NCBI GenBank assembly: GCA_015548865.1
Contig: JADMXW010000026.1
Coordinates: 1 to 64,000 of the forward strand
DNA length: 64,000 nt
Direction: 5' to 3'
DNA from: Serratia marcescens
Lineage (GTDB): Bacteria > Pseudomonadota > Gammaproteobacteria > Enterobacterales > Enterobacteriaceae
Shown: positions 35,592-42,216 of the stretch, in pieces
Layout: every line of letters begins with the position of its first letter
Position numbering within the stretch: the stretch's first letter is position 1
The notes under the pieces: generated by a model
Databases searched by the model: none
Told to the model about the DNA's origin: nothing
The model's input: only the letters and a program-made list of their open reading frames with translations
Made by a program: the position numbers and the translations under genes

Positions 35592-35906
35592 ATGAACATG
35601 ATGCTGCAACGTCCATTTTCCGCTCTTCTGCTTCCCCTGCTATTAGGGACGTCTTTGATGACCCATGCCGCCCCCGACACTTCTCTCCCCCCACCGATGG
35701 GTGCCCATCCCTTTGCCAAGGGCGAGATTCCCCCACTCCCCGCGCCACCGCTTTACGAAGCCTCAATGCAAACCCATCAACCCACTGAGGCGCTCAACAA
35801 GTTGATTGCCAACGCCCCTCAGACAGAGAACAAAAACTATGAGGTCAGGGTAATGATTCGCGAGCTGCCAGCACTACCGCCAGAGATGAAGCCCTCAGCG
35901 AAATGA
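35592..35906 (+). CDS. Small proline-rich exported protein, function unknown
   Basis: A 104-aa protein with a signal peptide (residues 1-26, MTHAA/PDTS) and a mature part rich in proline (SLPPPMGAHP, EIPPLPAPPLYE, LPALPPEMKP). AAGGA stands 6-7 nt before ATG 35592. There are no cysteines and no membrane segment after the signal, so it is probably a soluble periplasmic or wall-associated protein. I do not recognise a family. It is alone between hpt and the EamA gene, both on the other strand. Confidence 0.65.
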   Translation: MNMMLQRPFSALLLPLLLGTSLMTHAAPDTSLPPPMGAHPFAKGEIPPLPAPPLYEASMQTHQPTEALNKLIANAPQTENKNYEVRVMIRELPALPPEMKPSAK

Positions 35907-35959: not shown

Positions 35960-36862
35960 TTAAGCGAGACGCCTTTTGCGAACATACTGATCCACCAGAT
36001 TTACAATGGCGGGCAAACTCATGCCAACCAATATGAGCGCTCCTCCAAAAAGTACATTACCCGACAGGGTTTCATGCAGTAACCAAACTGCAAAAAATGT
36101 AGAAAATACAGGCTCGAGGTTATAGATCAATATGGCACGCAGTGGCGTGGTATAACGCTGATAATGGGTTTGAACCCAAAAAGCGATAACCGTAGAGAAA
36201 AGTGCAGTTACTAATAAGGCAATAACCAAGTCACTGTCCCATGTTGATGGCAACCCTACACCGCCCCTGGAATGCTCTAGTGTAATGAACACTATCGCCA
36301 TGGTCGCAATTTGTAAAAACGTCAGTGTCAGGTTGTCATGATGGTGGCTCAACCTATCAAGCACCATAATATGTACAGCAGTAAATATTGAACCAACAAT
36401 AACCAGTACATCTCCCCATTGTAATTGCCAGCCACTCACATCTGACATCAGATACAATCCAGCAATACCAAAAAGGGTCGCCAGGAGCGCATCAAGGCGA
36501 GGCAATTTCCCCGCCAACGGCCCTGAGAGCAAGAGCACCCAGATAACGCTGAGTCCAGAAAGGAACCCTGTGTTTGATGCTGTCGTTATCTGCAATCCCG
36601 AAATGAGGAAGATGAATGCCCCCCCGAGCAGAAGACCCAATCCAACTCCAGCGGCTAACGTATTAAGAGGCATCACGCCAAGTTTTCTAGCACTGAAAGG
36701 CAGTAATATCAGACTAGATAGTGCAAATCGTAATCCCAGCACCATGAGTACCGAGTGTGAATTGATGGCCAATTTCATAACAGGGAAACCTATTCCCCAC
36801 CCGGCAGCAACACAGAGTAACAATAGCTCGGCGATCCAACGTTTAGGAGTTACTGTACTCAT
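35960..36862 (-). CDS. EamA-family (DMT) permease
   Basis: A 300-aa membrane protein with about ten helices and two EamA repeats (~residues 10-140 and 150-290), the drug/metabolite transporter pattern. Typical segments are LLLCVAAGWGIGFPVMKLAI, GLQITTASNTGFLSGL and IYNLEPVFSTFFAVWLLHE. Members export amino acids, cysteine derivatives or other small metabolites; the substrate is not readable here. Its start overlaps the upstream cysteine desulfurase gene by 4 nt (ATGA), so the two are coupled. Confidence 0.88.
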   Translation of the reverse strand: MSTVTPKRWIAELLLLCVAAGWGIGFPVMKLAINSHSVLMVLGLRFALSSLILLPFSARKLGVMPLNTLAAGVGLGLLLGGAFIFLISGLQITTASNTGFLSGLSVIWVLLLSGPLAGKLPRLDALLATLFGIAGLYLMSDVSGWQLQWGDVLVIVGSIFTAVHIMVLDRLSHHHDNLTLTFLQIATMAIVFITLEHSRGGVGLPSTWDSDLVIALLVTALFSTVIAFWVQTHYQRYTTPLRAILIYNLEPVFSTFFAVWLLHETLSGNVLFGGALILVGMSLPAIVNLVDQYVRKRRLA

Positions 36863-38007
36863 GCGATTCCTCTCAGTCGCTGCGTATAGGACACAAGCAG
36901 GTCCAGAGCGTCATCCAGTTCTTGTTTTGTGGTGGTATGACTCATACTGAGCCTGAGCGCTCCTGTAAGCAGCAGTTCATTCAGCCCCATCGCGGTCAGC
37001 ACATGACTCGGTTTTTGCTCAGCAGAGTGGCAGGCAGAGGCGCTGCTCAATGCCACTTTCATTTTCAGTTTTTGCAGCAACGTGCTTGCTTTGATACCCG
37101 GAATCGAAAAATTCACCGTATTCGGTAAGCTTTGCTGAGGGCAACCATTAATAACGATTTCGGGTAAACGGTGCTGAAGACGATCGATAAGGTATTCTTT
37201 CATCGTTTTCTGAGCAGGAACACGTTGAGCACAGGTTGAAAGAAACTGCTCTGCTGCCTTTGCCATCCCGGCAACACCGGGAAGATTAACCGTGCCACCA
37301 CGCAGGCCTGACTCCTGACCGCCACCGTGGATAAGCGGAAAATGTCTCAATATGTCAGGTTTTGAACAATAAAGCGCGCCAACGCCACGGGGACCATAGA
37401 ATTTATGGGCCGACATACTGACAAAATCCGGCTTGAATGCGATAACCGAAAAGGGCAACTTCCCGACCCACTGCGCGGCATCCGTATGAAATAAGATATT
37501 ATGCCTACGCGCAATCTCACTAATTTCAGCCAAGGGTTGTAACACCCCGGTTTCATTATTCGCAGCCATGATAGATATCAAGCGAGTGTCAGGACGTATT
37601 GCCTTCTGAAGCGCACCGAGACATATCCTGCCAAGATGGTCCACGGGTAAGTAAGTCACATCAACGCCATAAGGATGAAGGTGCTGACAGACACTCAATA
37701 GACACTTATGCTCAATCATGCTGGTCACAATATGAATACGTCCCTGAGGTAAATAGTAATCAGCAACGGCTCGAATGACAGTATTGTTTGCCTCAGAAGC
37801 ACCTGAGTTGAATACGATATAGTGCGGTTCTGCATCGATTAATCGCGCTACAATCGCCCGACACGATTCTAAATACGCATTCGATTTTATCCCCTCATAA
37901 TAACCAACGGAAGCCGTGTTTGCGAAATATTCTTCGGTACAATGGATCATGGTGTTACGAACAACAGGATCCAAAACCGTCGTTGCGTTATTGTCCAAAT
38001 AAATCAC
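36859..38007 (-). CDS. NifS/IscS-type cysteine desulfurase
   Basis: A 382-aa PLP enzyme that releases sulfur from cysteine as an enzyme persulfide. The PLP lysine is Lys202 (SAHKFYGPRG), His100 (IEHKC) stacks on PLP, Asp176 is in HTDAAQ, and the catalytic Cys326 is in SSASACHSAEQKPSHVL, a group-I-like loop. It is not iscS: there are no iscR/U/A neighbours and the sequence differs clearly from E. coli IscS. Overlap with an EamA permease gene suggests a dedicated role in making or clearing a sulfur compound. Confidence 0.9.
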   Translation of the reverse strand: MIYLDNNATTVLDPVVRNTMIHCTEEYFANTASVGYYEGIKSNAYLESCRAIVARLIDAEPHYIVFNSGASEANNTVIRAVADYYLPQGRIHIVTSMIEHKCLLSVCQHLHPYGVDVTYLPVDHLGRICLGALQKAIRPDTRLISIMAANNETGVLQPLAEISEIARRHNILFHTDAAQWVGKLPFSVIAFKPDFVSMSAHKFYGPRGVGALYCSKPDILRHFPLIHGGGQESGLRGGTVNLPGVAGMAKAAEQFLSTCAQRVPAQKTMKEYLIDRLQHRLPEIVINGCPQQSLPNTVNFSIPGIKASTLLQKLKMKVALSSASACHSAEQKPSHVLTAMGLNELLLTGALRLSMSHTTTKQELDDALDLLVSYTQRLRGIA

Positions 38008-38042
38008 AGTTAAAACCCCATTTTACGAATTACACGCTGCTC

Positions 38043-38148
38043 TATACCCTAAATAATTCGAGTTGTAGGAAGGTGGCAAGCAAATGAATCCCGAAAGATG
38101 AATCAGATATAACCAAGGCTATCTGCAACGTAAATTATGGAAGTATAT
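38043..38148. repeat. Degenerate ERIC element
   Basis: The left end TATACCCTAAATAATTCGAG is intact, the centre is shortened and the right end (CTGCAACGTAAATTATGGAA) is worn. About 106 bp remain. It lies between the unrecognised 266-aa gene and the cysteine desulfurase gene. Confidence 0.75.
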
Positions 38149-38160
38149 CGATCACGAGTA

Positions 38161-38961
38161 TTATTGAATGCTATAACAGACATCGACAAATGCCCCTTCA
38201 TCATCCCCAAAAAAAACATTAATAATGGTGGTTTCGCAGAGAGGCTCATCCTTAAAAATAGAGTACGAAGATACGCCTTGCAAAACTTTCGTTTTATCTG
38301 AAGCGTCAGACCAGTCAATAATGACAAAGCTATTTGCTTTAAAGAAGCGTTGCGTTAATTTCAACATCACATCTTTGTAATGCTGTGAAATAATAGCAGG
38401 GCACTTCGCAGTAAACACATGCCCTTTCCGACGTGCGAGCATAAAAATACCTAAGGAGCTTGTTTTTATATTCACTTCATTGTCGAGACCATGTTGCGTA
38501 ACAATGATACTATCATGATTTATTTTCTTTTTTATAGTGCTTATGGCGCGATTTTTACTTGTACGTTCGGAAAAAAGCATCAACTTGTCTCTTTTTATAA
38601 GTTCAGTTTCCGCTATCACTTTCTCCAATTCATGAGGAAGTTCTTGCTCTTTCCTTTCATTTATTGGAGCAGAATTTACTGTGCAGAGATCCTCTGAACA
38701 AGAAATCCCTAAATCATCGATGAGAATCCCATAAACAAGCCTCACCTTTTTTGGGTATTTTCTTATCAAAGCCTTACCTAAAAAAATGGCATCTCTAAGC
38801 GTATTCACAGAGAACTCATCAACACCAAATCGATGATTAAAATGCCCCCCTTCCAGATAGATAACCATCGTCCCTGTGGATTTATGGCAGCATTCATCAA
38901 CGTAAGAAAGTATCTCACCGAAATAACTTCTTTCATGATTACCCTCAATGCTCAATGACAT
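38161..38961 (-). CDS. Unrecognised 266-aa protein
   Basis: A cytoplasmic-looking protein without signal or membrane segments. ATG 38961 is chosen because AAAGGG lies 6 nt upstream; in-frame codons up to 39039 have no ribosome site. The likely fold is alpha/beta: strand MVIYLEGGHF, helix TLRDAIFLGKALIRKYP, strand VRLVYGILIDDLG, and later ANSFVIIDWSDASDKTK and TTIINVFFGDDEG. Cysteines occur as CCHKS, CSEDLC, KCPA, LCE and VCY. It is AT-rich compared with the flanking housekeeping genes. It lies 153 nt upstream of the cysteine desulfurase, same strand. No family recognised. Confidence 0.7.
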   Translation of the reverse strand: MSLSIEGNHERSYFGEILSYVDECCHKSTGTMVIYLEGGHFNHRFGVDEFSVNTLRDAIFLGKALIRKYPKKVRLVYGILIDDLGISCSEDLCTVNSAPINERKEQELPHELEKVIAETELIKRDKLMLFSERTSKNRAISTIKKKINHDSIIVTQHGLDNEVNIKTSSLGIFMLARRKGHVFTAKCPAIISQHYKDVMLKLTQRFFKANSFVIIDWSDASDKTKVLQGVSSYSIFKDEPLCETTIINVFFGDDEGAFVDVCYSIQ

Positions 38962-39304
38962 GACCGACCCTTTTTCTTCGATGGAAATCTGTATTAAAAT
39001 AGTCATAATTTCATAAAAAACAATCATGAAACAATACAAATCAACAGAGTTACCTTACTCCCTTCATACATTTTCAGAGTCAAGTGTAAAGTACGTTTTA
39101 TGCCTAAAAATGAACTAAATAATATGTTGCTTCACTCTGTATTGTGAAAATGGTGTCCAGAATATCAAATGGAATATGTTGTCAATCAAGACACCAAAAA
39201 ATTATTTCTCCCAGAAAAACACATAATGCAGTTAGCAAAGTACTTATCAGATCGCATATTTTTCAACCTATGGTTGCTAAACCAGTGACACGCATATATC
39301 TCCG
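38962..39304. other. AT-rich intergenic region
   Basis: No gene seen. It should hold the promoter for the 266-aa gene, but no convincing -35/-10 was found. The right edge runs into an ERIC remnant that continues into the ATPase gene. Confidence 0.5.
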
Positions 39305-39332
39305 TCACACTTCACGTTGCGGGTGTGTTGGC
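39293..39332. repeat. ERIC remnant overlapping a gene end
   Basis: ATATCTCCGTCACACTTCAC followed by GTTGCGGGTGTGTTGGC is the reverse complement of the ERIC right end (compare 15513-15549). It supplies the stop codon and last residues of the ABC ATPase gene at 39305. Confidence 0.7.
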
Positions 39333-40375
39333 GTCAATGCGGGAAACAGGATGGGTTGATCCGGTCGGATACTGATTCTGACTTGCTGCCCCGGCTCAAA
39401 CCAGTTACTGGTTTGTACGATAAGTACTCGCTCCGCTAACCGAACCCGGTACACATTCGATGTGCCCAGAAACACACGATCTTCTACCAGCGCTGAACCA
39501 TCTGGATCGAGAGCCAGCGCGATCTCTTGTGGCCGTACCAGCCAATCGCACTGGCTACCTACCGGAAAGCTCAGTGGATAATTGGCGTGAAAATCCCCCA
39601 TTGGACTCTGCCATTGATGTTCGCTCAGCACGGTGATCGGCAGATAGTTAGTGTTACCTAGAAAATCGGCCACTACACGCTGTACTGGCCGATAATAGAG
39701 TTCATAAGGATTTCCTTGCTGTATCACCTTGCCGTCATGCAATAACACCACATGATCTGACCAGGCAAACGCCTCTTCGCGGCTGACCGTCGCCAGAATA
39801 GCCGCAATCTGACGCTGTTTGAGCAAATCGCGAATTTCCCCAATCAACCGATCTCGCTGCTGGCTGTCCATCGCGGGGAAAGGCGCGTCCAGCAGCAATA
39901 AGCGTGGCTTGCATAATAAGGCCCGCCCCAACGCAACACGTAACTGCTCTTCGGTGGACAAATCGCGCGGATAACGCGCGGCACACTCTGTCAATCCCAA
40001 CAGCACCAGCATCTCCTGTACCGCATCTTTATGTTCCTGTGTGGCTGGAACCGGACAGGCAAAGGCCAGATTCTCCCGCGCACAGAGATGCGGAAACAGG
40101 GCATAATCTTGGAAAACAAGCCCTACGGGCCGCAGATGTGCGGGAACAGACGCCATCGCGGTGCTCATGCGCTCCCCCACAATGGCGATCTCCCCTTGTG
40201 TCACCGGAAACAATCCAGCGATTGCTTGCAACAACGTGGTCTTTCCGCAGTCGTGCGGACCTAATACGCAAATCAGTTCCTGTTCACGGACTGAAAATGT
40301 TACTGCGTCCAACACTGACTGCTGTCTGATATGACAGGATAAACCTTGCACCGCTAATACCGTGGTGGGCGTCAT
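39305..40375 (-). CDS. Ferric-iron-type ABC ATPase with degenerate catalytic motifs
   Basis: A 356-aa protein of the FbpC/PotA-like family with an ATPase domain and a C-terminal TOBE-type region (~240-350). Walker A reads GPHDCGKTT with Lys45 kept, and the Q-loop VFQDYALFPHL is intact. The signature is LSTEEQLRVALGRAL instead of LSGGQ, Walker B is LLLLDAPFPAMD with the catalytic Glu replaced by Ala164, and the switch His is replaced by Val197 (ATVSREEA). It could bind ATP but should hydrolyse poorly. The last residues come from an ERIC remnant. It overlaps the permease gene by 4 nt. Confidence 0.85.
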   Translation of the reverse strand: MTPTTVLAVQGLSCHIRQQSVLDAVTFSVREQELICVLGPHDCGKTTLLQAIAGLFPVTQGEIAIVGERMSTAMASVPAHLRPVGLVFQDYALFPHLCARENLAFACPVPATQEHKDAVQEMLVLLGLTECAARYPRDLSTEEQLRVALGRALLCKPRLLLLDAPFPAMDSQQRDRLIGEIRDLLKQRQIAAILATVSREEAFAWSDHVVLLHDGKVIQQGNPYELYYRPVQRVVADFLGNTNYLPITVLSEHQWQSPMGDFHANYPLSFPVGSQCDWLVRPQEIALALDPDGSALVEDRVFLGTSNVYRVRLAERVLIVQTSNWFEPGQQVRISIRPDQPILFPALTPTHPQREV

Positions 40376-41985
40376 CGATTATTTCCCTTCCAAAACCATT
40401 GAAACCACAACATTGGCACACCGCCAATAATCACTAAGCACAGTGCCGGCAGCGCTCCCCACGGCAACAGGTTATCGGCAGCCAAACGAAAAACATACGT
40501 CGGCAGCGTTTCCCATCCGAACGTGCGGAACAAGAATGCGGCATTCAACTCTTTCATGCCTTCAAAAAACAGAATCACCGCCCCCATCATCACCTGCGGT
40601 TTCAATAACGGGAAATAAACACGTGCCCCACGTTGCCAGGCCGTGAGGCCAGCGACATCACTAGCCTGATCCAGTATGTGTGGAATGTTTGCCATACATA
40701 CACTGAGCGGCTCCGACACGAAACGGCTGAATTTGGCGCAGTAAACCAGCACCATAATCAACCAGACGCTGGAAAAAAGCGGGAAAGAAAACGGCATGCC
40801 AACCATCTCAACCAGAGGACGTAACCCGTTATCCAGAGCAATAAGCGGAATGGCAATTCCCGTCGCCAGCGCAGCCCCCGGAAAAACATAGCCCCATTGC
40901 GCGAGACCAAAAGAAATCCGTCCGGCACGTAAGCCAGCAAGGCGAATAAACAGCAAGAAAGGAATCATCATCACGCACAGGATAGCGGCAGCCAGCAATG
41001 CCATAGTCAGGCTGTTCAACAGCGCATCAAGCAGCATTGCATTCAAGCCATCACCGATATGAGCCAATTGCCAATACACTAAGCGCCCTAGCGGCAGCCC
41101 GATAGCCAACAGTGCCAACCCCCAACCTATCAGCATAACCAACCGAGCCTTACCCACCGTCAAAACCGGCTTGGTCATGTAATCTGTCACGCCTGGTAAG
41201 GTATTTTGCCGCTGCTGCCGGGCAAAGCGCAGCCCAAGCCAGGTAAGCAGGACAACGAAAGGCAACAGAGAGAGCGTCCAATGGGCTACAGCCTGAGTAT
41301 CACCTTGCAGCACACCCGCATCGATCAAACGCGTCGTCAGCGTGGGCAACGCCAACAAGCGCGCAGTACCATAATCATTCAGCGCTTCCACAGCCACCAG
41401 CACTCCCCCCATACCGATGACAGGGCGTACAAGCGGAAAGGATAAACGCCAAAACACCTGGCGCGGCGTCAATTTGAGTAACTGAGCAGCTTGTAACCAA
41501 TGCGGTGGCTGTGATTCCAACGCGTGGCGCACGGGCAGGTAAACGTAAGGATAGAAAGCCAGCGCCAACGCGGCACTGCCACCTGCAAGAGTAAAACGGC
41601 GGGCATTTTCCTCACTGAGTCCAGAAACATTAAACAGGGACCATAGCATCCCATTTTGTCCCAGCATATCCGCATAAAAATCTGCCAATAGAAAGGCTGG
41701 CATGGCCAGCGGCAGACACAGTGCCCAGGCAACGCTACGCTTGCCGGGAAAGCGATAACATGCCATCACCCAAGCGGCAGGAAGCCCAATCAGCAAACTG
41801 AGTACAACAGAACCGCATACGAGAATCGTCGTATGCAACAAGTAAAGCGGCATTCCCTGTTCCCATAGTGTCAGTACGCTGTCAGCCTCGGGCAAAAATG
41901 CCAGCGCAAATACTATACCCACGGGAAGCAGAAATGCTCCGTTAATCATCCAATAACTGATACGCCAGATACCCGATATCATCAC
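40372..41985 (-). CDS. Ferric-iron-type ABC transporter double permease
   Basis: A 537-aa fused permease (FbpB/SfuB-like) with two halves of about six helices. EAA-type loops are visible in each half: LQAAQLLKLTPRQVFWRLSF (~residue 185) and ASDVAGLTAWQRGARVYFPL (~460). Such proteins import ferric iron or related substrates with a periplasmic binding protein, but no binding-protein gene is next to it. ATGA overlap with the ATPase gene. The intergenic region to yacC shows no clear Fur box. Confidence 0.85.
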   Translation of the reverse strand: MMISGIWRISYWMINGAFLLPVGIVFALAFLPEADSVLTLWEQGMPLYLLHTTILVCGSVVLSLLIGLPAAWVMACYRFPGKRSVAWALCLPLAMPAFLLADFYADMLGQNGMLWSLFNVSGLSEENARRFTLAGGSAALALAFYPYVYLPVRHALESQPPHWLQAAQLLKLTPRQVFWRLSFPLVRPVIGMGGVLVAVEALNDYGTARLLALPTLTTRLIDAGVLQGDTQAVAHWTLSLLPFVVLLTWLGLRFARQQRQNTLPGVTDYMTKPVLTVGKARLVMLIGWGLALLAIGLPLGRLVYWQLAHIGDGLNAMLLDALLNSLTMALLAAAILCVMMIPFLLFIRLAGLRAGRISFGLAQWGYVFPGAALATGIAIPLIALDNGLRPLVEMVGMPFSFPLFSSVWLIMVLVYCAKFSRFVSEPLSVCMANIPHILDQASDVAGLTAWQRGARVYFPLLKPQVMMGAVILFFEGMKELNAAFLFRTFGWETLPTYVFRLAADNLLPWGALPALCLVIIGGVPMLWFQWFWKGNNR

Positions 41986-42155
41986 ACAAGCAACGATAAA
42001 TCCTATTGACCATAACTATTAATAACAGAGGGCGCGGACGGCGTCATGCTATCAACAGGGAATAAATGGGGCTTAATCGTGCCATTGGACCGTACATTAC
42101 ATATTGGGGCGCAGAGAATAACGGGTTTCACTAACGTAACCACGTAAAATAAACC

Positions 42156-42184
42156 TTGAAACCCCTCGCCCCATCTGTGATAAC
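42156..42184 (+). promoter_or_regulatory. Possible promoter of yacC
   Basis: TTGAAA (42156-42161), a 17-nt spacer and GATAAC (42179-42184), 33 nt before the yacC start. The -10 matches four of six consensus bases. Confidence 0.4.
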
Positions 42185-42216
42185 GTCATTTTAGGATTGT
42201 TGATACAGGTTTAATC

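Follow-up and report, generated by a model that had tools for sequence, protein, structure and literature searches.

An importer-type ABC ATPase with eroded catalytic motifs, maintained under purifying selection in Symbiopectobacterium

The window ATPase and the closest described systems

ABC importers of the FbpABC type are taken to need both a binding protein and ATP hydrolysis. It is well established that heterodimeric exporters can combine a degenerate nucleotide site with a canonical second one. For MalK of E. coli the C-terminal domain is regulatory and acts on MalT. In the degenerate site of the exporter ABCB11 the Walker B Glu is replaced by Met, and the signature carries Gly to Arg and Gln to Glu changes (PMC7544095). 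We analysed an ABC ATPase gene within a stretch of 64,000 nucleotides of bacterial DNA (the window), which we counted in Candidatus Symbiopectobacterium as the closest records of the named collection are from this genus. Symbiopectobacterium are insect-symbiont bacteria.

The locus resembles the ferric importers FbpABC, SfuABC and HitABC in the fold of the ATPase, in the combination of nucleotide-binding domain (NBD) and TOBE domain, in the fused two-half permease and in its synteny with a complete operon of Brenneria. It differs from them as the window pair has neither a substrate-binding protein (SBP) gene nor a Fur-like site and the catalytic motifs are lost. As in exporters with one degenerate site (ABCB11, TM287/288, BmrCD), the Walker B Glu and signature residues have disappeared. 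However, those exporters have a second, canonical NBD, whereas the only ATPase gene of the window operon is degenerate and hence both sites would be degenerate. MalK, too, is an importer ATPase whose C-terminal domain is of the TOBE type and can take on a regulatory role, but it is a competent ATPase with a regulator partner, MalT. The features of the locus are as follows:

39305..40375, minus strand: degenerate FbpC/SfuC-type ABC ATPase, 356 aa, NBD plus TOBE-type C-terminal domain, intact ORF
40238..40261, minus strand: Walker A GPHDCGKT, residues 39-46, Lys45 kept, second Gly changed to Asp42
40085..40117, minus strand: Q-loop with the helix after it (VFQDYALFPHL), facing the permease and retained; 1 of 11 canonical-invariant positions altered (I87V)
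39944..39961, minus strand: signature LSTEEQ, residues 139-144, in place of LSGGQQ
39884..39901, minus strand: Walker B LLLLDA (LLLLDAPF, 159-166), catalytic Glu changed to Ala164
39785..39787, minus strand: switch (H-loop) His changed to Val197, context TVSREEA
39308..39679, minus strand: C-terminal TOBE-type domain, residues 233-356, the best-conserved part, 1 of 19 canonical-invariant positions altered
40372..41985, minus strand: FbpB-type two-half permease, 537 aa, PF00528 match, 4-nt overlap with the ATPase start
41986..42216, no strand assigned: operon upstream region, no binding-protein gene and no Fur-box-like site (best 12/19, equalled by 50 of 200 shuffles)

The ATPase matches the Pfam families PF00005 (ABC_tran, 87.5 bits) and PF08402 (TOBE_2, 30.1 bits), both over the cut-off. 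It did not reach any NCBIfam equivalog cut-off: the top model was PhnT2 with 243.7 bits (457.7 required), and the ferric model NF008513 scored 177.7 bits, below its cut-off of 496. The AlphaFold model (pLDDT 87.6) shows an ordinary importer-ATPase fold. Among PDB structures the Thermus thermophilus ferric importer FbpBC (9j4r_B, TM 0.82) comes nearest, followed by PotA, CysA, FbpC (3fvq) and MalK. The protein therefore has the NBD, the TOBE_2 domain and the fold of an FbpC-type ATPase, and it is without that type's full set of Walker A and B, LSGGQ and switch His.

The residues reported in the initial annotation (Lys45 and the Q-loop kept, LSTEEQ, Ala164, Val197) carry exactly these numbers in the translated ORF, and the intact frame and the two halves of the permease that it described were likewise found. 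The Walker A change of Gly42 to Asp was absent from its list. Besides Lys45, Gln89 and the Walker B Asp163 are kept, and the D-loop reads P-A-M-D. The lost motifs lead naturally to the expectation that this ATPase would hydrolyse little or no ATP.

There are 142 PF00005 matches in the window genome, and we aligned 145 ABC domain rows, one of which is a fragment. At the Walker B Glu position we observed E in 142 rows, D in one and A solely in the window ATPase. At the second signature Gly, G occurs in 140 rows and E only in the window ATPase, which is also the only row with V at the switch position and the only one with D at the second Walker A Gly. This combination of losses is unique among the about 144 ABC domains of the genome, so we rejected the idea that such losses are common there by chance.

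The operon and its orthologues

The initial annotation described the operon as otherwise normal. We cannot agree with this description, as a binding-protein gene was sought at the window locus and is absent; the pair has no cognate ferric-binding protein gene in its operon. Fur sites were scored by a simple match count to a 19-base consensus and compared with 200 shuffles. Upstream of the complete operon of Brenneria we counted 15/19 matches, and in Pasteurella 16/19, values that none of the 200 shuffles reached; the SfuABC paralogue described below had 14/19 (4 of 200). For Symbiopectobacterium, Pectobacterium, Dickeya and Lonsdalea we obtained only 11-12/19 (50-177 of 200 shuffles), which is not significant. 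Judged by the consensus count as the sole measure, Fur control was not recognised in the window. With no cognate binding protein and no Fur-like site, the window pair is doubtful as an iron importer.

We defined the locus as yacC-speE, operon, hpt-can. The pair sits between yacC-speE and hpt-can in Pectobacterium, Samsonia, Brenneria, Dickeya and two more genera; the genus names Musicola (g15) and Lonsdalea (g117) were inferred from placement beside Dickeya. At this locus Brenneria G172 (L104) has a complete operon with binding protein, permease, canonical ATPase and Fur-box-like site, which is apparently the ancestral type. It starts with the binding-protein gene, whose product is 69% identical to that of Pasteurella, and among the genomes searched G172 is the only one in which an orthologous SBP was seen. 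The gene is also missing at the locus in Pectobacterium, Dickeya and Lonsdalea, and all five Lonsdalea genomes were without any SBP match at E 1e-20. The eroded ATPases thus coincide with the absence of the binding-protein gene and of a recognisable Fur site. Symbiopectobacterium, Pectobacterium and some Brenneria gave only paralogues (42-45%) as matches; those of Symbiopectobacterium and Samsonia belong to a separate complete SfuABC-like operon with a canonical ATPase. In the window's own genome, NifH-like and NifD-like genes (L075 1-2242, contig C64) lie a few kb from this canonical operon; the window's Symbiopectobacterium may carry a nitrogenase cluster.

The ATPases at the syntenic locus differ in how many motifs they have kept. 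Those of Brenneria G164 and G172 are fully canonical (LSGGQ, Glu and His), as is the Pasteurellaceae outgroup. The signature reads LSGEQ in Brenneria G166 and LSGAQ in G165. In Brenneria G169 (L107 7835-8896) it reads ISRER; Glu, His and the ORF are intact there and the permease gene is gone. Pectobacterium, Samsonia and the other Brenneria have LSNEQ and retain both Glu and His. Dickeya and Musicola have LSREQ-like signatures and the Glu, and the His is replaced by Ser (Ala in one Dickeya). In Lonsdalea we found LSKEQ, Glu changed to Ser (Ala in one) and His changed to Thr.

The ATPase tree places the clade of Symbiopectobacterium (100/100, stem 0.69) with Pectobacterium, Samsonia and the LSNEQ Brenneria (97/90). 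The Lonsdalea clade (100/100, stem 0.72) joins Dickeya and Musicola (100/100), and the canonical Brenneria group falls outside both of these larger clades. As Symbiopectobacterium and Lonsdalea belong to separate clades, the tree is most simply explained by two independent losses of the catalytic Glu (to Ala and to Ser or Ala, respectively), each on a long stem and followed by renewed constraint. On the tree the signature changes come before the loss of the Glu. This order is sensible, because in ABCB1 the loss of the Glu alone locks the ATP-bound dimer and added signature and Q-loop changes relieve the lock (PMC7544095). The locus thus offers a natural series, from canonical Brenneria over Pectobacterium (signature lost) and Dickeya (His lost) to Symbiopectobacterium and Lonsdalea (Glu lost), with which the use of an importer ATPase after the loss of hydrolysis becomes testable.

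Selection and retained surfaces

An intact ATPase orthologue is present in all five Symbiopectobacterium genomes. In each of them the Glu is Ala, the His is V or L and the signature is LS(A/T)(E/K)(Q/E). The orthologue alignment that the initial annotation had proposed thus shows substitutions that are fixed in the genus, and with five genomes in agreement an annotation or assembly error in the window genome was rejected. As for canonical orthologues in sister strains, which it had named as evidence to the contrary, there are none inside the genus and they occur only in one Brenneria group.

For Symbiopectobacterium the codon model gave omega values of 0.091 (ATPase), 0.101 (permease), 0.122 (speE), 0.044 (hpt) and 0.018 (can). 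Pairwise NG86 dN/dS values of the ATPase range from 0.063 to 0.111 at a dS of 0.15-0.92. The log-likelihood was -2708.4 with omega free compared to -2887.4 with omega fixed at 1, a difference of 179 units. Such low values exclude neutral decay over the time sampled. The ATPase shows neither the broken frame nor the relaxed constraint of a pseudogene (omega 0.09). The suggestion of an early decaying gene is at odds with the genus-wide fixation and with a dN/dS of 0.06-0.11 at a dS of up to 0.9, and we rejected early decay on the basis of an omega of about 0.09. Purifying selection acts on the genes of the locus in every group measured, and in plant-associated genera with similar erosion of the ATPase omega is 0.07-0.15. 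Both the ATPase and its membrane subunit remain under selection and now probably have another task.

The permease is intact in the window and in two other Symbiopectobacterium genomes. Two assemblies show a broken permease beside an intact ATPase, with one stop in L011 and frameshifts in L012. L011 also has a broken speE and L012 a broken hpt, so these breaks may be sequencing (base-calling) errors. The permease itself is much changed and keeps 125-131 of 234 canonical-invariant positions. A loss of coupling in the EAA loop was considered and set aside as uninformative, as the EAA Gly is already missing in Brenneria permeases with canonical ATPases.

In order to see which surfaces of the ATPase were retained, we took the 128 positions that are invariant in ten canonical orthologues and counted the losses in Symbiopectobacterium. 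We found 9 of 25 positions lost in the catalytic motifs, 27 of 73 in the remaining NBD, 1 of 11 in the Q-loop block and 1 of 19 in the C-terminal domain. The catalytic residues were thus kept no better than the average NBD residue, whereas those at the permease contact and in the C-terminal domain were. With a post hoc division, the ATP side of the NBD lost 36 of 98 positions and the Q-loop block together with the C-terminal domain 2 of 30 (Fisher p 0.001). In the other groups the losses lean the same way, but significance was reached only in Symbiopectobacterium. Omega values for the two domains are only suggestive: in Lonsdalea the C-terminal domain has 0.051 compared to 0.090 for the NBD, the relation is reversed in Pectobacterium (NBD more constrained) and the two are equal in Symbiopectobacterium.

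Possible roles of the retained pair

A non-catalytic role of the window ATPase, as sensor or regulator, fits these observations best. The starting point would be a complete Fur-regulated ferric importer of the FbpABC/SfuABC type between yacC-speE and hpt-can. The binding-protein gene and a recognisable Fur site are missing in most Pectobacteriaceae. The signature would have eroded, then the switch His (Dickeya and Musicola, Lonsdalea, Symbiopectobacterium) and, twice, the catalytic Glu. What survives would be a non-hydrolysing membrane complex of permease and NBD/TOBE protein under purifying selection, in which the ATPase may be bound to the permease and have a structural or regulatory function, its Q-loop face and its C-terminal domain being the working parts. 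Such a complex could serve in sensing or gating instead of powering uptake. We favour the reading that the window pair stems from a Fur-regulated ferric importer which lost its binding protein, its iron control and its motor and was kept for a regulatory, sensor or gating role, while holding it as somewhat short of probable. The wider proposal is a tentative one: the importer may have evolved repeatedly into a motor-less and SBP-less complex in which the ATPase is a dedicated non-catalytic regulatory or sensor subunit, with the intermediates still alive in Pectobacteriaceae. Where these proteins are annotated as iron-transport ATPases, the function given is probably wrong. In the literature searched, which misses most subscription journals, we found no counterpart of an importer whose sole ATPase is predicted to be dead at both sites and is yet under strong selection.

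Alternatively the window pair may have weak ATP binding, slow hydrolysis or a shared ATPase. Another competent ATPase of the MalK/FbpC type might drive the permease, either in a mixed dimer with the window ATPase, which would have one degenerate site like the heterodimeric exporters, or in its place. Four of the five Symbiopectobacterium genomes have the canonical SfuABC-like system, the genome has about 140 further ABC domains, the permease-facing Q-loop is kept and transport tolerates a degenerate site on one side (PMC7544095). However, the operon has one ATPase gene and the canonical SfuC paralogue is not universal: neither S. endolongispinus nor any of the five Lonsdalea has it, and in Lonsdalea the Glu is lost as well. 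The initial suggestion that the protein may pair with another ATPase thus does not hold for SfuC as a general partner, and universal pairing was rejected. Even in a mixed dimer, an eroded signature or an eroded Walker set would be part of each composite site, and the permease would remain without its cognate SBP. We regard a borrowed ATPase as unlikely.

The pair might also be a slow or leaky transporter with some hydrolysis left, or with gating driven by ATP binding, for a substrate that does not depend on an SBP. This would agree with the retained Lys45, Asp163 and Gln89 and with the purifying selection on the permease. The simultaneous loss of the Glu, the His, the signature Gly-Gly and one Walker A Gly argues against it, as does the missing SBP, and we consider it improbable. 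Decay at a late stage, in an operon that host-associated bacteria do not need, would suit the 2,679 pseudogenes against 2,559 intact genes of S. endolongispinus and the high load in host-restricted relatives (PMC13345370), the two broken permeases and the one Brenneria wholly without permease, but it is strongly disfavoured and in our judgement very improbable because of the omega of about 0.09 at a dS of up to 0.9, the intact ATPase ORF in 5/5 genomes and the similar erosion in plant-associated genera (omega values given above).

Two further characteristics of the region were observed. Between the ATPase and hpt (window 35960-39039) there is a three-gene insertion of an EamA-like permease, a NifS/DndA-like cysteine desulfurase and a 292-aa ORF; the latter two were not found at the equivalent locus in other genomes. 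Near hpt (window 35592-35906, plus strand) lies a small secreted-looking ORF of 104 aa, and a similar ORF occurs in L011.
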